Assembly (NCBI GenBank): GCA_028819305.1
Contig: JAPPLY010000029.1
Coordinates: forward strand, 1-34,208
Direction: 5' to 3'
Source: Bdellovibrionales bacterium
Lineage (GTDB): Bacteria > Bdellovibrionota > Bdellovibrionia > Bdellovibrionales > UBA1609
Length of the DNA: 34,208 nt
The notes beneath the pieces are model-generated. The model did no database searches. It was not told where the DNA came from and saw nothing but the letters and a program-made list of their open reading frames with translations. How positions within the stretch are numbered: the stretch's first letter is position 1; each line of letters begins with the position of its first letter. A program made the translations under genes and the position numbers. This document shows positions 5,488 to 34,208 of the stretch, piece after piece.

Positions 5488-5761
5488 ATTTCCATCACGA
5501 CATTTCTAAACTCTCATTTCCCTTGAGAGAAAAAAGAGACGACAGGAAAACCCGATCCCCACGGAAGCAGGAATCAAACACAATCAGTGTGTAAAAAATA
5601 TACAAAAATGTAAATATTTCATTAAAGTTTTTTATATAAGTAAAATAGGATTATGATATACTTATCGGGCTCCTGTTGGACTTAAATTAACTATTAATGT
5701 AGTGAAGTTATTCACTAATAAAATAGAGGAATTACTCATTTTTTTAAAATTATATGATCTT

Positions 5762-7744
5762 ATGCAGAATACTATATGGCTTTTAGCTTGGAGAGTTTAT
5801 TATCTCTCTTTAATTTTTTTAGTAACTGTCAGTTTACAAGCTTTTTCTGCTTTATCTTGTGAGGATTTTGCGCGATTACACCACTCAACTTTCGTAAATG
5901 ATACGACAAAAAACTACAGGCAACTTCTCACTAGGTTGGCTCAGTCCAGCTTGAGAGTAAAAGAATTAAACCTTCAGCAAATAAAAGCTTTAGAGAGTTA
6001 TCATAGCGTGGTTTTAGGAGAGAAGGGAAAAGATGGAACTTTTCCCAGAGCAGGTAATTATACTGTGGGTCAGAGGAGAAAGATCATAAAATATCTCGAG
6101 AGCCAGGGGTTTTCCCGTGAACAAGTGAGAAAGTTGATAGAAGATGGGGTGGTAGAGATTAATCGTATAGCAAAACTAAGGCTAAATATAAGAAAAGTTT
6201 TAAATAATATTAATGAGGGAAAACCTGTTTTTATTACAGACAGCATAAGATTTATAAAAGTAAATAAAGTATTGGAAAGAACAGACAGATATGGTCTCTT
6301 GGTGGAAATAGAGGCAATAGATCCTAAAACTCGTCAAATAGTCACAGAAGAAATGTTTCTAACAGAAGGTAGGGTTATTTTTGAGCAGTACCAGATAGTT
6401 AATAAGGTCTTAGAAAAGACAAATAGGGGTTTTGTAGTCCGTTTGATGAATGGAACCAATGCTTTTTTTTCCTTTAAAGAAGCTATAAAAAATGGTTTAC
6501 TTCCAAGAAACCCTACAACTAAAGATATTCGTGAATTAGAAGATACTTTAAATATACCAGTCGTGTTTGAAAATTCCGGCTTTAAAAGCTTAGCTACCAA
6601 AAGGAAAGAACCGAAAAGTTACGGAAAAATAATACCCGATGGGTATAAATTCCAATCGAGGGAAGATATTCCTGATCTAAGGGAGTTTTATAAAAAAATA
6701 AGCGATAGCTTCGTATTTACTCAATATGGATACACTCAATATAGTGGAGAATACAGATTGATAAATCCTGAATTTGAAGCTATATTTACTGCTGCTCGCT
6801 CCACCAGGAAAAAAGTGAACTCTAAAGACTTACAGCTTCCTCCACCCACTAGTAAAGTGGAACAAGATTATAAAACTAGCTATACAGAAGGCTTAGATCA
6901 AGTTAATGAATGGGCCTATGTTCGCAGACGTTTACAAGAGTTAGGAGCCAACCCTCGAACTACCCATATTGAATATTTTGCGGATCAAATTCCTGATTTT
7001 ATAGCGCATATAAGAAAGAGTCTTGAAGAAAATTATTTTCCTGAATCTCATCTTTCTGGTAGCAAGTCGGAACAACTAAAACACCTAGAGAGTCTGGAAG
7101 TAGAAGCAAAGAAAGCTATTACAGATGAAACAGTCACTTATAAGTGGTGGCTCATTTTTAACCATAAATTATCTATAGTGATGACAGGAAGCCATCCCAA
7201 AAACAAAACGAACTTAGGTCTTGTTGAGGAGGAGATAATATCTGAATTTCCATTAAAAATCATAATACCAACAACTAGAGGAGAAAACATAGGAATTATA
7301 ACTTTCAATAGAGCTATGTTTGAAGGTGTTTACCCGGCTGGTATGATTAATAAAAATAATATTAATGTAGATAATACAACACTTTACCCCTCTGATTTTT
7401 TTACACATGATATAGGACATTCTATCCTTAACGGTAATAGGCTTTATATGGATTATTCTGTGAGCCATAGGCTACTGCATAAAAGATTATTAGATAGCAT
7501 GGAAGATCTCCCACCGAATAAAAGAAAACAAGTGGAAGGGGTTTATTTTATTATGACACATGAAAGTGATCTCAATATTCTTACCTATGGTCATCTGAGA
7601 CTAGAAACAATAAAAAGCTCTATAATGAATCTTGTTTCTAACGTTTTTAAACTTCCTGATGATCCTGTTTTAAGGAAACAGAAAATAGAAGACCTGGCTG
7701 ATACTTTTATGGAAGTGTATAACCGGGCACAACAACAATTATAG
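5762..7744 (+). CDS. Large exported orphan protein
   Basis: Track ORF starts at GTG 5702; ATG 5762 gives a signal-peptide-like N-terminus (MQNTIWLLAWRVYYLSLIFLVTVSLQAFSALSC). C-terminal half has a FFTHDIGHSI motif. Confidence 0.75.
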   Translation: MQNTIWLLAWRVYYLSLIFLVTVSLQAFSALSCEDFARLHHSTFVNDTTKNYRQLLTRLAQSSLRVKELNLQQIKALESYHSVVLGEKGKDGTFPRAGNYTVGQRRKIIKYLESQGFSREQVRKLIEDGVVEINRIAKLRLNIRKVLNNINEGKPVFITDSIRFIKVNKVLERTDRYGLLVEIEAIDPKTRQIVTEEMFLTEGRVIFEQYQIVNKVLEKTNRGFVVRLMNGTNAFFSFKEAIKNGLLPRNPTTKDIRELEDTLNIPVVFENSGFKSLATKRKEPKSYGKIIPDGYKFQSREDIPDLREFYKKISDSFVFTQYGYTQYSGEYRLINPEFEAIFTAARSTRKKVNSKDLQLPPPTSKVEQDYKTSYTEGLDQVNEWAYVRRRLQELGANPRTTHIEYFADQIPDFIAHIRKSLEENYFPESHLSGSKSEQLKHLESLEVEAKKAITDETVTYKWWLIFNHKLSIVMTGSHPKNKTNLGLVEEEIISEFPLKIIIPTTRGENIGIITFNRAMFEGVYPAGMINKNNINVDNTTLYPSDFFTHDIGHSILNGNRLYMDYSVSHRLLHKRLLDSMEDLPPNKRKQVEGVYFIMTHESDLNILTYGHLRLETIKSSIMNLVSNVFKLPDDPVLRKQKIEDLADTFMEVYNRAQQQL

Positions 7745-7863: not shown

Positions 7864-9030
7864 ATGTATTCTCGCTTACTAGCTTTACCAAAAAAAAGTT
7901 TTTTCCTTTTCGGGCCAAGAGGAACAGGTAAATCTGTATGGTTGAAGCAACATCTTTCCTTTGCCGATTTAAGTATTAACCTTCTTAAATCCAAAGAGTA
8001 CTTACAATACAAAAAAAATCCCTCTCTTCTTGAACAAGAAGTAAGTGCATTAAAAAAAAGAAAAGCCTGGATTGTCATTGATGAAGTACAAAAATGCCCT
8101 GAATTGTTGGATGAAGTCCATGCTCTATTGTTTGAAAGTAAAAACAATTACCGTTTTGCGCTGTCTGGTTCCAGTGCTCGACAGCTTAAAAGATCTCAAG
8201 CCAATATGCTGGCCGGTCGAGCTTTGTCAAAAAAAATGTTTCCTCTCAGCAGATTGGAAATAGGTAAGAATTTTAAACTACAAGAAATACTTTGTTATGG
8301 GCAATTACCCTTAAGTGTAACAGAATCCAATATAGCAAACAAAATTGAATTTCTGGATGCTTATATAGAAACTTATTTGAAAGAAGAAATCCAACAAGAA
8401 GCTCTTGTAAGGAACTTAAATAATTTTTATCGTTTTCTCTCTATCGCCGCTTTAATGAATGGACAAGTTCTCAATATATCCAATATTGCTAGAGATGTTG
8501 GTGTAGCCAGATCCACAGTACAAGGTTATTTTAGCATTTTGGAAGATACATTGTTAGCTTGGTATTTACCTGCGTATCGTAATAAAGCTAAAGTCAAAGA
8601 AATTGCTCACACTAAATTCTACTTATTTGACTGCGGTGTGCAACGGGCCTTGGCAGGGCTTCATAGGGATAAACCTTCAATAAATGAAATAGGTTTTTTG
8701 TTTGAAACTTTTATTCTGAATGAATTTAGGGCTATTAACTCATGGATGTCTCATGGAGCTAGGTTTTTTTATTGGCGTACGGAATCAGGCAATGAAGTAG
8801 ATCTTATATGGAAAAAAGGACATCAATCCATTGGTTTTGAAATAAAATCCACTTATGTCTGGAAAGAAAAGTTTAACAAAGGATTAAATGTTTTACTAAA
8901 TTCAGGGGATATACATAAAGCTTTTGGTGTATATCGCGGCCACCGGATTTTAAAAGTGGGTAAAGTTACCGTTCTGCCCTACACAAGGGCTATAGAGATG
9001 GTTTTTCAGGGACATTTTAAATCTTCATAA
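7864..9030 (+). CDS. AAA family ATPase with C-terminal DUF4143 (PD-(D/E)XK-like) domain
   Basis: FLFGPRGTGKSVWLKQ Walker A; WIVIDEVQKCPELLDEVH Walker B; LSGSSARQLKR; C-terminal GNEVDLIWKKG...GFEIKST. Confidence 0.93.
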   Translation: MYSRLLALPKKSFFLFGPRGTGKSVWLKQHLSFADLSINLLKSKEYLQYKKNPSLLEQEVSALKKRKAWIVIDEVQKCPELLDEVHALLFESKNNYRFALSGSSARQLKRSQANMLAGRALSKKMFPLSRLEIGKNFKLQEILCYGQLPLSVTESNIANKIEFLDAYIETYLKEEIQQEALVRNLNNFYRFLSIAALMNGQVLNISNIARDVGVARSTVQGYFSILEDTLLAWYLPAYRNKAKVKEIAHTKFYLFDCGVQRALAGLHRDKPSINEIGFLFETFILNEFRAINSWMSHGARFFYWRTESGNEVDLIWKKGHQSIGFEIKSTYVWKEKFNKGLNVLLNSGDIHKAFGVYRGHRILKVGKVTVLPYTRAIEMVFQGHFKSS

Positions 9031-15375: not shown

Positions 15376-15486
15376 CACACTCACTAATAAACCATTCTCC
15401 TCATAATAACCAAAGGTTGCTCTGTGGCAAAACGCATGTCCGAGCCTTTTAACCTCCATTCTCTTCTGAAGGATTCCTTCACTATC

Positions 15487-26554: not shown

Positions 26555-27553
26555 ATGATATTAGATCCTGGATTTGAACTCACTTTACGCCCTATGAAAT
26601 ATCCCGTATTTTATGAAATGTATCGGGATGCCATTAAGAATACATGGACCGTAGATGAAGTGGATTTTAGCCCGGACATTGTAGATCTGAATCAAAAGCT
26701 CAACTCCAGTGAAAGGTTCCTTATTCAAAGATTAGTGGCTTTTTTTGCCACGGGGGATACTATTGTCGGTAATAATTTGGTTTTGAATTTGTATAAGCAT
26801 ATTAACTCCCCGGAAGCTCGCATGTATCTAGGGCGTCAACTCTACGAAGAAATGCTCCATGTTCAATTTTATCTAACTCTGCTAGACTCTTATATTCCTG
26901 ATCACCAAGAAAGAGCCAAAGCTTTTTCTGCTATTACAGAAATACCTTCTATTAAGAAAAAAGCGGATTTTAGTTTCAAATGGATGGATACTGTAGATAA
27001 GCTGAATAGATTGGACACTTTGGAAGACAAGCGTCGTTTCTTAATGAACTTGATTTGTTTTGCGGGAGCTATTGAAGGCTTGTTCTTTTTTGCCGCTTTT
27101 GCCTATGTATATTTTTTACGCTCTAAAGGACTTTTAAACGGTTTGGCTACAGGAACCAACTGGGTTTTCCGGGATGAAAGTTGTCACATCCAGTTTGCCT
27201 TTAAGGTGATTGAAGTGGCCCGAAGAGAGCAACCTGATATTTTTCACCCGGGCATGAATAATATGATTATAGCTATGTTCCATGAAGCTATTGAGTGTGA
27301 ACTAGCCTTTGCCGAGGAAATTTTGGAAAAAGGAGTGGCCGGGCTGAGTCTAAAAGACATGAAAACCTATCTCCAATACATCACTAACCTTCGTTTAGAG
27401 CAACTAGGGATACCTCCTCAATTTAAAGCACGTAACCCCTTTAGCTTCATGGACCTACAAGACACTCAGGAGCTAACTAACTTTTTTGAAAGAAAACCCT
27501 CTGCCTACCAAGTGGGCGTTAAAGGAGAGGTTTCTTTTGATGAGATGTTTTAA
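26555..27553 (+). CDS. nrdB: Ribonucleoside-diphosphate reductase beta subunit
   Basis: LYEEMLHVQFY, RDESCHIQFAF, EAIECELAFAEEIL diiron ligands; ATG 26555 after GAGGTG (track start 26540 is TTG). Confidence 0.95.
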   Translation: MILDPGFELTLRPMKYPVFYEMYRDAIKNTWTVDEVDFSPDIVDLNQKLNSSERFLIQRLVAFFATGDTIVGNNLVLNLYKHINSPEARMYLGRQLYEEMLHVQFYLTLLDSYIPDHQERAKAFSAITEIPSIKKKADFSFKWMDTVDKLNRLDTLEDKRRFLMNLICFAGAIEGLFFFAAFAYVYFLRSKGLLNGLATGTNWVFRDESCHIQFAFKVIEVARREQPDIFHPGMNNMIIAMFHEAIECELAFAEEILEKGVAGLSLKDMKTYLQYITNLRLEQLGIPPQFKARNPFSFMDLQDTQELTNFFERKPSAYQVGVKGEVSFDEMF

Positions 27554-27649
27554 AAACAACTTCCCTCACTCTATTCCCCGATGGACTATAAAACAAGAAA
27601 AAGCTTTGATTGAAATGTTTTAAAAACAACTTCCCTCACTCTATTCCCC
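27545..27649 (+). repeat. Direct repeat at the nrdB 3' end
   Basis: atgttttaaaaacaacttccctcactctattcccc (35 bp) at 27545-27579 and identically at 27615-27649, period 70 bp; includes the nrdB stop codon. Confidence 0.95.
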
Positions 27650-27752
27650 TGCCGGCTCACTCACAAACTTTTATCCTTAGCCATGTAGTGTAATACAAAT
27701 AAACGCTTGTTTTAATAAAGTCCTTAAAAGTGTCTCAATTACTTTTAATAAA

Positions 27753-27878
27753 TAGTCGGTTCTGAAAAAGTTTTCTTAATGTCATTCCCGTGAAAACAGG
27801 AATCCAGAAAGGTAAACAGGGCTAGATGCCCGCTTCCGCGGGCATGACAGTTTGTTGGAATTTTTTCAGAACCAACTA
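27753..27878. mobile_element. 126-bp MITE-like element, copy 1
   Basis: Terminal inverted repeats TAGTCGGTTCTGAAAAAGTT / AATTTTTTCAGAACCAACTA; two internal stem-loops including ATGCCCGCttccGCGGGCAT; TA at both ends. Confidence 0.85.
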
Positions 27879-27914
27879 AATATAGTAAAAATATAGTAAA
27901 AAGGAGGAATATTA

Positions 27915-28169
27915 ATGAAAAATATATTATTCTTTATGTTCATAATAGTAAGTAGTTTTAATGTTTACGCTAGAGGTGAAAATGATGGTTCTGGTGTTGT
28001 GAAAAGAAGCCAGCCGGTGACAGATTCGACAACAACAGGAACCCTACCTTCTCCATCACCGGTATCTAATTATGAAAGAAGCCAGCCGGTGAAATGTCCG
28101 AAAAAAATTAGAGAAGGAGGACCTATAAAGATAAATATTGAGTTAGAGTGTTCATCTTACAACAAGTAA
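27915..28169 (+). CDS. Small exported protein, ARGENDGSGVVKRS family, short paralog
   Basis: AAGGAGG ribosome-binding site; signal peptide MKNILFFMFIIVSSFNVYA; near-identical N-terminus to the ORF at 29586. Confidence 0.75.
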   Translation: MKNILFFMFIIVSSFNVYARGENDGSGVVKRSQPVTDSTTTGTLPSPSPVSNYERSQPVKCPKKIREGGPIKINIELECSSYNK

Positions 28170-28206
28170 AACTGGTCCCGTTCTGAAGTAGAAACGGGAC
28201 CAGTTT
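28169..28206 (+). terminator. Strong hairpin, terminator-like, copy 1
   Basis: AAACTGGTCCCGTT-10 nt-AACGGGACCAGTTT (14-bp perfect stem) followed by a second hairpin AAACCC-AGA-GGGTTTTT. Confidence 0.7.
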
Positions 28207-28306
28207 AAACCCAGAGGGTTTTTATATTCAAAAAACCAAACAAAACCCAACTTCAGAGATAAATAACAGGACAAAAGAGGTAACACCACATTCCCACTTA
28301 AACCCA
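28205..28306 (+). repeat. 93-bp repeat family, intergenic copy 1
   Basis: Unit begins ttaaaccca at 28205 and again at 28298 (period 93); homologous to 34062-34208. Confidence 0.85.
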
Positions 28307-29179: not shown

Positions 29180-29423
29180 AAATTATGAGTAACAAAAAAA
29201 CTAGAAAAAAAACTAAAATCAATTTTGAGATTTTAGAGTCAATCACGAAAAGTTAGAGAGATATTTCTAATTGGTTTCCTCCCGACCTCATAGTGTAATA
29301 CAAATAAACACTTGTTTTAATCAGGTTCTTAAAAGTGTCTCAATATGAGACCAACTCAATGAATATTAAAAAATACTATAAAAAAATTGAAAAAAAAAAA
29401 AAATAACCGATCCTTTTAATAAA

Positions 29424-29549
29424 TAGTCGGTTCTGAAAAAGTTTTCTTAATGTCATTCCCGTGAAAACAGGAATCCAGAAAGGTAAACAGGGCTAGATGC
29501 CCGCTTCCGCGGGCATGACAGTTTGTTGGAATTTTTTCAGAACCAACTA
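29424..29549. mobile_element. 126-bp MITE-like element, copy 2
   Basis: Reads as identical to copy 1 at 27753-27878. Confidence 0.85.
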
Positions 29550-29585
29550 AATATAGTAAAAATATAGTAAAAAGGAGGAATATTA

Positions 29586-30233
29586 ATGAAAAATATATTA
29601 TTCTTTATGTTCATAATAGTAAGTAGTTTTTATGTTTACGCTAGAGGTGAAAATGATGGTTCTGGTGTTGTGAAAAGAAGTAAGCCGGTGACAGATTCGA
29701 CAACAACAGGAACCCCACCTCCTCCATCACCGGTATTTCCACCTTCTCCATCACCTCCCAGTTCCGCCCACGCAATCGTACTTCCTTCTCCATCACCGGT
29801 ATTTAATGTGAAAAGAAGCAAGCCGGTGACAGATTCGACAACAACAGGAACCATTAGAGACGGAACTATAAATATTCATTATGATATTTCACCAGCTATT
29901 GTTGAAAAAAACGCCGAAATACAAGCTTTACGCAAACAAGTTGTAAATTTAGCTAGGAAAGGACACGCTTTAGCTGCTGACTTAAAAGCTTGCAAAGGAA
30001 GAAAATATGCATCCGAATGGAGCGGTGGCGGTGAAGGGACTGAAGGTAGCCCTAACCAAAACAATAGTGGCAACTGGAGCGGCATTGGCGATTTCATTGG
30101 CGGTTTATTTGGGGGCAGCGATGACTCCGACCCTGGTGGCCCCGGTCCTGGCGGCGGCCCTGGCAGCGGCGGCCCTGGCAGCGGCGGCCCTGGCACAGGC
30201 GGCGGTGTCAGTGATGAAGGTGGGCGACGATAA
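29586..30233 (+). CDS. Exported Pro/Gly-rich protein, ARGENDGSGVVKRS family, long paralog
   Basis: Signal peptide; duplicated VKRSKPVTDSTTTGT; charged helical segment IVEKNAEIQALRKQVVNLARKGHALAADLKACKGRK; GGPGPGGGPGSGGPGSGGPGTGGG tail. Confidence 0.75.
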   Translation: MKNILFFMFIIVSSFYVYARGENDGSGVVKRSKPVTDSTTTGTPPPPSPVFPPSPSPPSSAHAIVLPSPSPVFNVKRSKPVTDSTTTGTIRDGTINIHYDISPAIVEKNAEIQALRKQVVNLARKGHALAADLKACKGRKYASEWSGGGEGTEGSPNQNNSGNWSGIGDFIGGLFGGSDDSDPGGPGPGGGPGSGGPGSGGPGTGGGVSDEGGRR

Positions 30234-30700: not shown

Positions 30701-30768
30701 GATAATAATATATGGATCGTCCCTGAAAAGTGAACTATTGAGTTAGAGTGTTCATCTTAAACAAATAA

Positions 30769-30806
30769 AAACTGGTCCCGTTCTGAAGTAGAAACGGGAC
30801 CAGTTT
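30769..30806 (+). terminator. Strong hairpin, terminator-like, copy 2
   Basis: Same 38-nt hairpin as 28169-28206. Confidence 0.7.
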
Positions 30807-30909
30807 AAACCCATAGGGTTTTTATATTCAAAAAACCAAACAAAACCCAACTTCAGAGATAAATAACAGGACAAAAGAGGTAACACCACACTCCCACTTA
30901 AACCCAAAG
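30805..30909 (+). repeat. 93-bp repeat family, intergenic copy 2
   Basis: ttaaaccca at 30805 and 30898 (period 93); almost identical to 28205-28306. Confidence 0.85.
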
Positions 30910-30956
30910 CGTTTTATAGAAAGCGGGAAAAACCTTTCTCCAACATGCAAACTATA

Positions 30957-31082
30957 TAGTCGGTTCTGAAAAAGTTTTCTTAATGTCATTCCCGTGAAAA
31001 CGGGAATCCAGAAAGGTAAACAGGGCTAGATGCCCGCTTCCGCGGGCATGACAGTTTGTTGGAACTTTTTCAGAACCGATTA
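30957..31082. mobile_element. 126-bp MITE-like element, copy 3
   Basis: Same length and core as copies 1 and 2 but diverged ends; TIR TAGTCGGTTCTGAAAAAGTT versus TAATCGGTTCTGAAAAAGTT (19/20); perfect ATTCCCGTgaaaACGGGAAT stem. Confidence 0.85.
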
Positions 31083-31095
31083 TATAAATACAAAC

Positions 31096-31154
31096 TTATT
31101 TGGACTAAAATCCAAAATAGTCTTGACTTATTTGGATTTTAGTCAAAAATAGTC
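31096..31154 (+). promoter_or_regulatory. Operator-like direct plus inverted repeats before DUF4143 ATPase
   Basis: Two 27-nt units TTATTTGGA-9 nt-AAAATAGTC with period 32, plus inverted pair GACTAAAATCCAAA (31103-31116) / TTTGGATTTTAGTC (31131-31144); TTGACT between them. Confidence 0.65.
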
Positions 31155-31157
31155 GTA

Positions 31158-32309
31158 ATGAAAAAACATTCTTTTCATAGGCTGAATAAAGCTTTTATTC
31201 TAAAAGATTTAAAAAAAAAGATGGTTCTTCTCACAGGACCACGGCAAGTGGGAAAAACATGGCTCGCAAAGCAGATTATGAACCATTATAAGAACCCACT
31301 GTATCTAAATTACGATTCTCTCAAAGATAAAAAAATGATAAAAGAACAATCCTGGCTAGAGTCTGTAGATCTTATCGTGTTTGATGAAATTCATAAAATG
31401 GATCAATGGAAAAACTACATAAAAGGAATTTTCGACACCCGTCCCCAACACAGAAATATATTGGTAACAGGAAGTGCCCGACTTCAACAAATACAAAGAT
31501 CAGGGGATTCTTTAGCCGGACGTTTTTTTTCCCATACCCTTCTGCCTTTCTCCCTTTTTGAACTAAGCCAGACTAACCAATCTATTGGCTTTAATAAACT
31601 GTTTAGTAGAGGAGGATTTCCAGAACCTCTACTGATGGCGAAAAGTATTAATGAAGCAGAAAGATGGAGGCAGCAATATATGTTTTCCTTATTAAGAGAG
31701 GATATTCCTGACTTTAAAAACCTTCAAAATTATAGAAAAATGGAAACCTTATTATATCTACTTAGAGAAAAAATGAGTTCGCCTATATCTATCAACTCTC
31801 TTTCCCAGGCCCTTGGAATAGACCATAAAACCGTTGAAAAATATATTACTGTTTTAAAAGACCTTTTTATTATTTTCTCAGTTCCTTCATTTTCAAAAAA
31901 TATTGCCCGTTCTCTTTCTAAAACAAAAAAAATCTACTTTTACGATTACGCTTTCATTGACGCCATAAATACAGGGGGACGATGGGAAAATATAGTAGCT
32001 CTCCATTTACTGAAACACTGTCTTTATTTACAAGAAACACAACCCTCTAAAGCATTGCAACTAGTATATTTAAGAACAAAAGACAAAAGGGAAGTGGATT
32101 TCCTACTGACGAAAAAAGGCTCTCCGCATCTGATGATTGAAGTGAAATCAAAAGAAGTTGCTTTTAGTAAAAATTTAATATATTTCCATGACAGATACGG
32201 TATCCCAGGAAAACAGTTATGCCCAAAATTAAAAAGACAAAAGCAAATAAAAGGAAAAAATATCATTTCAGAAAGTCTTGAAACTTTTTTACTTAAACTA
32301 AAAACATAA
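31158..32309 (+). CDS. AAA family ATPase with DUF4143 domain
   Basis: VLLTGPRQVGKTWLAKQI Walker A; DLIVFDEIHKM Walker B; LVTGSARLQQIQRSGDSLAGR; EVDFLLTKKGSPHLMIEVKSK. Confidence 0.93.
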   Translation: MKKHSFHRLNKAFILKDLKKKMVLLTGPRQVGKTWLAKQIMNHYKNPLYLNYDSLKDKKMIKEQSWLESVDLIVFDEIHKMDQWKNYIKGIFDTRPQHRNILVTGSARLQQIQRSGDSLAGRFFSHTLLPFSLFELSQTNQSIGFNKLFSRGGFPEPLLMAKSINEAERWRQQYMFSLLREDIPDFKNLQNYRKMETLLYLLREKMSSPISINSLSQALGIDHKTVEKYITVLKDLFIIFSVPSFSKNIARSLSKTKKIYFYDYAFIDAINTGGRWENIVALHLLKHCLYLQETQPSKALQLVYLRTKDKREVDFLLTKKGSPHLMIEVKSKEVAFSKNLIYFHDRYGIPGKQLCPKLKRQKQIKGKNIISESLETFLLKLKT

Positions 32310-32392: not shown

Positions 32393-33577
32393 CTATAATA
32401 AAGGCCGAAAAGATAATTCTCTATAACGGTTGATCGTTTTCCTGTAAGGTTCAATCCATATATTTTTATCCAATTTTCTTGTTCTCTTATCAGAAAGTGA
32501 GCAAATGACTATCGGTATTCCTGGAAAATCTTTTTGAAAAGCTTTTAAAGAATGTATATTTTTTATTTGCCGACCTGTTTTACACTCAATGGCTATAAGA
32601 GGCTTTCCACCTGATTCAATTATAAAATCTATTTCCCATCGTCCCTTCCTCCAAAGAGAAATACGATGCTCATATTCTGAATAATCACGAATCCTTATCA
32701 ATTCATTAGCTATCCATGTTTCAAAAAGCATTCCTTTCTCCACCGATGTAGGTTTATCAGAGAGCCTATTTTGCAAAGCTCTTATAACTCCACAATCAAA
32801 AAAATAAAACTTAGGCCGAGCTTTTTTACGCTCACTACGATTAAAAGGCCATATAAATTGGCCCATCAGAGTATCTTCTAAAATGGAATAATGCTCCTTT
32901 ACCGTATTAACATGCACAGCACATTCCCGAGATACATTAGCAAACTCAATCATTTGCCCATTGCATTGAACTGCTACATCCAAAAAACGATAAAACGAAT
33001 CGAGCTTCCGCACAAGAGATTCTGCTTTTATTTCCTCCTTAATATAAGTTGTTACATAGCTCTTCAGGTGAGAAATAGCCTCTTTACTATGATTTTGAAC
33101 AATTAAAGAAGAAATCAAAGGAAGAGATCCAAATCTTAAAATAGTATTAATGTTAAAGTCTTTCCCTAACTCATGGGCTGTCAGAGGATGTAGATTGAAA
33201 TAAATAGCACGCCCTCCCAATAAATTAGCCCCTCCATGTCTTAATTTCCTGGCACTAGAACCAGATAAAAAAAATCGTATTTTTTTTCTATCAATCCCCA
33301 TCTGAACATAATCCAAAAGCTTTGGAATTTTTTGAATCTCATCCACCATAACCACCATATTGGGCTTTAAAAATGAAATAGCCTCCCAAAATTCATGCGG
33401 ACGAGTACGAAAGGCTATTTCCACTTGAGGGTCCAATAGATCAAAACAGACATCAGCCCCCAGCTGATTGAGAAGGGAGGTCTTTCCCGTCATACGCGGC
33501 CCCATTAGAAAACAAGAAGAATTTAGTGACTTAAGTTGAATCTCCCTTTTATACAATATATTGTTACTTGTACGCAT
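32393..33577 (-). CDS. AAA family ATPase with DUF4143 domain
   Basis: FLMGPRMTGKTSLLNQLG; MVVMVDEIQKIPKLLDYV; LSGSSARKLRHGGANLLGGR; WEIDFIIESGGKPLIAIECKTG. Start set at ATG 33577 (track start 33586). Confidence 0.92.
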   Translation of the reverse strand: MRTSNNILYKREIQLKSLNSSCFLMGPRMTGKTSLLNQLGADVCFDLLDPQVEIAFRTRPHEFWEAISFLKPNMVVMVDEIQKIPKLLDYVQMGIDRKKIRFFLSGSSARKLRHGGANLLGGRAIYFNLHPLTAHELGKDFNINTILRFGSLPLISSLIVQNHSKEAISHLKSYVTTYIKEEIKAESLVRKLDSFYRFLDVAVQCNGQMIEFANVSRECAVHVNTVKEHYSILEDTLMGQFIWPFNRSERKKARPKFYFFDCGVIRALQNRLSDKPTSVEKGMLFETWIANELIRIRDYSEYEHRISLWRKGRWEIDFIIESGGKPLIAIECKTGRQIKNIHSLKAFQKDFPGIPIVICSLSDKRTRKLDKNIWIEPYRKTINRYRELSFRPLL

Positions 33578-33597
33578 AAATAACAATATACTGTATA
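33550..33597. promoter_or_regulatory. Operator-like inverted repeat across the start codon of DUF4143 ATPase
   Basis: TATACAATATATTGTTA-14 nt-TAACAATATACTGTATA (16/17 complementary); the 14-nt spacer holds the start codon. Confidence 0.6.
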
Positions 33598-33740: not shown

Positions 33741-34208
33741 ATGAACGGATCACAATTTTATTACGCCCATAATGTACTGGGCATTTCTTCACTTCTGAAA
33801 CCTCAAAAAATCCGTTCCACCTATCGCCTACATCATAGTTCAGAAAAAGAAATTGATTTTCTGTTTTTCTGCCAACAACTAAATACAGAAAAAGACCCTT
33901 CTTTAATTCAAAAAATAGCTCAAGCCCTGGGTTTCCCCAATTACGCAATAGTGGAAATCAGAGATAAACAAAACCCATACGTTCCTTATATTCTGAATAA
34001 CCTACTGACCCGCTTTTGCCCAAAAGGTTTTGTCATTTTTGGACCTGACTTAGCCCCCCACTTAAACCCAAAGGGTTTTAATTTTTACAACTCCGAACAA
34101 AAACCAACTTTAGAAATAAAAAAAAGAGCAAAAGAGGTAAAACAACATTCCCGCTTAAACCCAAAGGGTTTTAATTTTTACAACTCCGAACAAAAACCAA
34201 CTTTAGAA
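33741..34208 (+). CDS. Truncated ORF ending in in-frame 31-aa tandem repeats (runs off window)
   Basis: 156 codons with no stop from ATG 33741 to the window end: MNGSQFYYAHNVLGISSLLKP...LNPKGFNFYNSEQKPTLEIKKRAKEVKQHSRLNPKGFNFYNSEQKPTLE; absent from the ORF track because it is open-ended. Confidence 0.65.
   Translation, partial: MNGSQFYYAHNVLGISSLLKPQKIRSTYRLHHSSEKEIDFLFFCQQLNTEKDPSLIQKIAQALGFPNYAIVEIRDKQNPYVPYILNNLLTRFCPKGFVIFGPDLAPHLNPKGFNFYNSEQKPTLEIKKRAKEVKQHSRLNPKGFNFYNSEQKPTLE
34061..34208 (+). repeat. 93-bp tandem repeat inside the ORF
   Basis: 34061-34115 and 34154-34208 are identical (55 bp), period 93; second unit cut by window end. Confidence 0.95.

Follow-up and report, generated by a model that had tools for sequence, protein, structure and literature searches.

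Short palindromic repeats of at least two families lie in frame inside many unrelated proteins of a Bdellovibrionales genome

The stretch of DNA analyzed here (the window, 34,208 nucleotides, C87:1-34208 of the source genome) belongs to a Bdellovibrionales MAG of 1.98 Mb in 88 contigs, with a completeness of 92.9% and a contamination of 0.1%. The repeats occur in a relative of the predator Bdellovibrio that has a small genome; its ribonucleotide reductase small subunit shares 93-94% identity with that of two Bdellovibrionales MAGs. For comparison within the genus we used the genomes G001 (90% complete) and G002 (83% complete), and all results rest on one MAG and on incomplete relatives. The names “family 1” and “family 2” were coined in the course of this analysis.

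Heads of family 1 start at positions 28207, 30807, 30900, 34064 and 34157 of the window, and the period is exactly 93 bp both from 34064 to 34157 and from 30807 to 30900 (Table 1). This confirms the coordinates and the exact period given in the initial annotation for a tandem in the ORF from 33741 and for two intergenic relatives. The two tandem units of this ORF do not differ across the 52 nt that are visible. Intergenic copies 1 and 2 are identical to the coding unit at 75/93 and 74/93 positions (own-genome BLASTN, E=3.8e-19 and 8.6e-18), and to each other at 91/93. The replacement of the GAG codon by TAG in copy 2 (AAACCCATAGGG) had been read correctly. Two other early assumptions had to be given up. 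The intergenic copies do not represent separate insertions: both are contained in a duplicated segment of 185 bp, and they are one insertion, duplicated together with its surroundings. Nor does the ORF from 33741 run off the contig end, as position 34208 adjoins a gap of 100 N, past which (from C87:34309 onward) the frame resumes with another unit and reaches a unique C-terminus and a stop codon. Both flanks of the gap match one contiguous ortholog ORF without the array (G001:C43:1285-1818).

Table 1. Positions of repeat units, host reading frames and duplicated segments in the window
Feature	Position	Strand	Remark
Family-2 element IPVVFENSGFKSLATKRKEPKSYGKIIPDGY	6554..6646	+	93 bp, hairpin arm deleted, in frame in ORF 5702-7744
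Family-2 3' terminal palindrome ATACCC-GAT-GGGTAT	6632..6646	+	ends window copy
Host ORF of window family-2 copy	5702..7744	+	680 aa, without Pfam match
Duplicated segment carrying intergenic copy 1	28122..28306	+	94% identity to 30722-30906
Intergenic family-1 copy 1	28207..28299	+	followed by half palindrome
Duplicated segment, second copy	30722..30906	+	counterpart of 28122-28306
Intergenic family-1 copy 2	30807..30899	+	TAG in coding-equivalent frame
Second terminal palindrome AAACCCAAAGCGTTT at the end of the 30807 copy	30900..30914	+	palindrome-spacer-palindrome layout
Host ORF of family-1 array	33741..34208	+	N-terminal part without Pfam match
Family-1 unit 1, in frame, LNPKGFNFYNSEQKPTLEIKKRAKEVKQHSR	34064..34156	+	tandem array in ORF from 33741
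Family-1 unit 2, in frame	34157..34208	+	interrupted by 100-N scaffold gap

Several further features were seen in the window. Strong hairpins with AAACTGGTCCCGTTTC arms, probably transcription terminators, directly adjoin both intergenic family-1 copies (28169-28206 and 30769-30806). A segment of about 300 bp occurs three times (27742-28041, 29413-29712 and 30946-31245; 99% and 63%), and two of its three copies are upstream of small secreted proline/glycine-rich proteins. Near-identical 46-nt repeats (GTTTTAAAAACAACTTCCCTCACTCTATTCCCC) at 27534-27579 and 27604-27649, 70 bp apart, look like the two-repeat remnant of a CRISPR-type array. Three ORFs encode AAA-type ATPases, DUF4143-like by eye (7864-9030, 31158-32309 and 32393-33586).

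Genome-wide, the pattern AAACCC-NNN-GGGTTTT with at most one mismatch is found at 59 places, and its reversed control pattern at none. If the palindrome is restricted to a central AAA, 57 sites remain here compared to 0-3 in each of 58 relatives; in these, G001 and G002 included, palindrome counts are not above those of the control pattern. The approximately 59 sites are spread over many contigs, and both this dispersal and the species-specific, recent burst are direct observations. Sixty copies are conserved from T-AAACCC through about 28 bases and become looser thereafter, ending in a variable tail, so the conserved part of the unit is a palindromic head of about 28 bp. Single-strand folds of whole family-1 units showed mostly no excess structure over shuffles (z-scores were near or above 0 for five units and about -2 for the sixth), so the long stem-loop of the whole element that one looks for in RPE-like repeats is not seen; what is conserved is the short terminal palindrome, the only symmetric part, and not a long hairpin. 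The period of tandem arrays is either 56-62 or 93 bp, and several of them reach N gaps; the 93-bp unit originally proposed is therefore not universal, as periods of 56-62 bp occur elsewhere.

Family-1 copies are found between genes, at their ends, or within them in frame. The reading frames used are NPKGF and KPKGF, and the third frame mostly opens with TAA. In several cases (SecY, SSB-like protein, others) a copy provides the stop codon of the preceding gene or overlaps with it, and one copy lengthens ribosomal protein L3 by a few codons. Together with its T-run the head looks like a weak terminator, but the presence of copies within essential genes speaks against termination as the main function. 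A role as DNA uptake sequence was ruled out, as there are only about 59 copies and the homology extends well past the palindrome.

Seven loci carry family 1 in frame inside a gene. The hosts are a class A penicillin-binding protein (PBP), ValRS, MutL, an ATP-grasp-like ORF, the window ORF, an AroDE-like protein (shikimate kinase / shikimate dehydrogenase fusion-like) with three units, and an enoyl-CoA hydratase / 3-hydroxyacyl-CoA dehydrogenase (ECH/HCDH). At the insert the G001/G002 orthologs are shorter by 29 codons in PBP, about 52 in the AroDE-like protein and 22 in the hydratase; for ValRS, the ATP-grasp-like ORF and MutL the comparison gives smaller net gains together with local replacement. 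Native codons were replaced, not simply interrupted, in ValRS, the ATP-grasp-like ORF and ECH, and by family 2 in EF-G, which blurs the boundaries of these inserts. Single-copy in-frame inserts are found on many independent contigs with the expected gene on both sides. Empty sites in the relatives, the reading frame and the lengths of the inserts are observed directly.

The second family came to light through the peptide RKEPKSYGK, common to the AroDE-like protein and the protein of the window ORF 5702-7744. Its consensus comprises 114 bp or 38 codons, with the peptide IPIVFENSGFKGLAAKRKEPKSTEKLVPVKTGIIPDGY in one reading frame compared to the two frames of family 1. The ends (ATACCSATCG...CGATGGGTAT) are inverted repeats at 9 of 10 bases. 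A DNA search gave 40 or more places for family 2 in this genome and none in G001-G003. The best-scoring 30 of these places and the window copy were typed, and 13 of the 31 copies lie in frame in genes, the other 18 elsewhere. Hosts are RNase R, EF-G, FeoB, a BamB-like beta-propeller, an SNF2/DEAD-type helicase, a DUF4340 protein, MltG, the host protein of locus L238 (805 aa, no Pfam match above cut-off), the AroDE-like protein, two short ORFs and the window ORF; one host resembles, in our own reading and without a Pfam match, a mevalonate-kinase-type kinase. Same-genus orthologs without the 38 codons were found for RNase R, the BamB-like protein, the L238 host protein and locus L246. The G002 homologs of ORF 5702-7744 gave no clean alignment across the insert. 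Taking both families together, the proteins with in-frame inserts include translation factors, RNA enzymes and cell-wall enzymes.

Within family 2, a deletion of 1 nt (GTACG for GTTACG), which leads to the length of 114 bp, is present in 10 of the 13 in-gene copies and in none of the 18 others (Fisher p=6e-6, best 30 plus window copy). The window copy came into frame by a different route, as it has lost 21 bases. A length divisible by three was found for 13/13 in-gene copies compared to 10/18 others (p=0.01). One must keep in mind that this latter comparison is partly circular, since only a length divisible by three can leave an ORF open on both sides; the shared deletion of 1 nt carries more weight. 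The 1-nt-deleted form of 114 bp (L238-L261) was seen only in genes among the 31 typed copies.

A hint towards the origin of family 2 comes from outside the genus. Of 141 genomes of the order that were searched, two (G030 and G132) also contain its first approximately 32 bases; they belong to a different genus of the family. The 20-bp terminus ATACYGATCGTGTTTGAAAA has about 110 and 99 sites in these two genomes and 55 in the source genome, compared to 0-1 sites in two other members of the G030/G132 genus, with controls near zero. In G030 and G132 (L326-L336, L338-L365) the terminus ends perfect or near-perfect inverted-repeat elements of 38-114 bp. No new in-gene copies were found among the loci examined in these two genomes. 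The patchy distribution suggests that family 2 may descend from a MITE-like element. No consistent target-site duplication was seen at four clean pairs of filled and empty sites, nor in the copies of the other genus. For an autonomous parent element, no suitably spaced pair of ends was present among the matches listed, and the contigs are short. The family-1 head pattern and the family-2 core had no exact match in viral contigs.

Judged from the sequences alone, short mobile palindromic repeats of at least two families occur in this genome, where they lie in frame inside many unrelated proteins, and are lacking in close relatives. We consider it very probable that these are protein-coding palindromic elements, short and non-autonomous, whose way of working is that of the Rickettsia palindromic elements (RPE). 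The element consists of a short terminal palindrome (AAACCC-NNN-GGGTTT in family 1), a spacer and a second terminal palindrome. Mobilization would occur in trans by an unidentified enzyme, which is an inference, and insertion leaves no visible target-site duplication. One or two sense frames are open, so that copies with a length that is a multiple of three would add a peptide segment, and the host protein would have to tolerate the added 31 or 38 residues. That the inserts are translated is likewise inferred, without transcript or peptide evidence. Copies of other lengths would last only between genes or at gene ends. Since each end palindrome is at once a direct repeat of the other, tandem arrays in which each unit shares one palindrome would arise by recombination between the two ends; such growth, which we infer, would lead to the 93-bp period and would explain why the assembly breaks at arrays. 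The layout at 30807-30914 would permit this recombination and fits the period.

The closest competitor, which we regard as unlikely but still possible, agrees with this explanation on mobility and differs from it on the existence of a form fitted to coding. According to it the repeats are classical MITEs of a DDE-type insertion sequence, and the in-gene copies are tolerated by-products without coding adaptation. The inverted-repeat elements that ATACYGATCGTGTTTGAAAA ends in the other genus could be expected of such MITEs, and so could the inverted-repeat ends of family 2 itself. What speaks against it is the missing consistent target-site duplication and a parent insertion sequence that was not seen among the matches listed, although the contigs are short. 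Against it also stands the confinement of the 114-bp form to genes among the typed copies, as plain tolerance predicts otherwise for intergenic sites. One may carry the argument further and propose that the 114-bp form is a coding-adapted lineage, which arose from an intergenic MITE ancestor through the one-base deletion to exactly 38 codons and now enters translated genes by preference, bringing a ready-made peptide in frame. We put this forward only tentatively and hold it to be rather doubtful. If true, the 114-bp form would be a mobile protein segment and no tolerated accident.

Palindromes of the REP/BIME or IS200/IS605 type, moved by a Y1 (RAYT) transposase, would also be perfect, short, dispersed and frequently located next to stop codons. 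The Y1 transposase (PF01797) had no match in this genome, of which about 7% is missing, or in three relatives, while control genomes matched, and the longer conserved body of the repeats serves as coding sequence, which makes this origin very improbable. The same holds for the view, raised in the initial annotation, of an expanding coding repeat of one surface protein with dispersed fragments, or of a gene-tail duplication. The window array is indeed tandem, and its two intergenic relatives are indeed part of a duplicated segment, so that the gene-tail duplication stands for the relation between these two copies. Beyond them both versions are refuted: neither accounts for the copies inside ValRS, PBP, MutL and other unrelated conserved genes whose orthologs lack them, or for the sites on many contigs. 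The in-frame insertion by RPE-like elements, which had been inferred at the same time, is in contrast supported in the sense of a common way of working, with family 1 in other unrelated coding sequences and host-gene orthologs, that of the window ORF included, without the repeat. An artefact of assembly or binning at a collapsed repeat can hardly be credited: the window does end at an N gap within a repeat, and gaps break other arrays too, but the single-copy inserts have the expected gene on both sides on many contigs, and contamination is minimal.

To return to elements that work like RPE, these comprise 105-146 bp with 12-bp terminal inverted repeats, lie in frame in many Rickettsia genes, and have an unknown target duplication and unproven mobilization (PMC2229807; also PMC10969869). 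Like the palindromic elements of Rickettsia and Wolbachia, the repeats described here form several families per genome and are found between genes as well as in frame in unrelated conserved genes (PMC2229807, PMC10969869, PMC3767692). They differ in their bdellovibrionote host, in species-specific insertions with empty sites in same-genus species, in their in-frame tandem arrays, and in a conserved core formed by a palindrome of 15 bp with a loop of 3 nt. Homology to RPE was not compared, and we therefore do not file the elements as RPE members by descent.

Similar palindromic coding elements of Wolbachia and Methanocaldococcus jannaschii are cited in PMC2996958; the latter are likewise stand-alone in-frame insertions, but belong to another domain of life. 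Palindromic amphipathic repeat coding elements (PARCEL) share the tandem in-frame units with dyad symmetry (PMC2996958). They are amphipathic repeats of 25 residues in membrane proteins and ORFs of unknown function, whereas here units of 31 or 38 residues occur, also as single inserts in housekeeping enzymes. Among bacterial MITEs with open reading frames, ERIC, the 107-bp Correia/NEMIS form and YPAL resemble our repeats in being shorter than 200 bp and dispersed, with inverted-repeat ends and some forms fused in frame; here no target-site duplication was seen, and insertion in the middle of core housekeeping genes is common. In Neisseria one MITE size form is intragenic and another intergenic (PMC2229807), a split that resembles the 114-bp form. 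REP/RAYT systems share the short dispersed palindromes, but here a Y1 transposase is absent and the longer body is coding.

Such elements have previously been described mainly from Rickettsia and Wolbachia, plus one archaeon, and the papers that we searched contained no report of them for Bdellovibrio. How protein-coding palindromic elements move is unknown (PMC2229807). A study of Rickettsia japonica found the insert at the same locus in orthologs (PMC3767692), which hides the insertion event. In the present case the burst is limited to a single species, and filled and empty sites can be compared within the genus. With at least two families, of which family 2 has 13 and family 1 has 7 in-gene loci, and with a terminus that one family has in common with the MITE-like repeats of another genus, three questions become directly testable, namely what the elements target, what they descend from, and what the inserts cost EF-G, RNase R, ValRS and other hosts.

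A third, older palindromic repeat of about 115 bp (TTCAGGAGAGAACAGG...CCTGGTTCTCTCCTGAA) was also observed, for example at G000:C85:3456-3569 and at 15409-15470 of the window. It is common across the family, with 48 matches in the own genome, 43 in G001, 18 in G002 and 27 in G003, and is read through in at least two genes, the hydratase and the AroDE-like protein.
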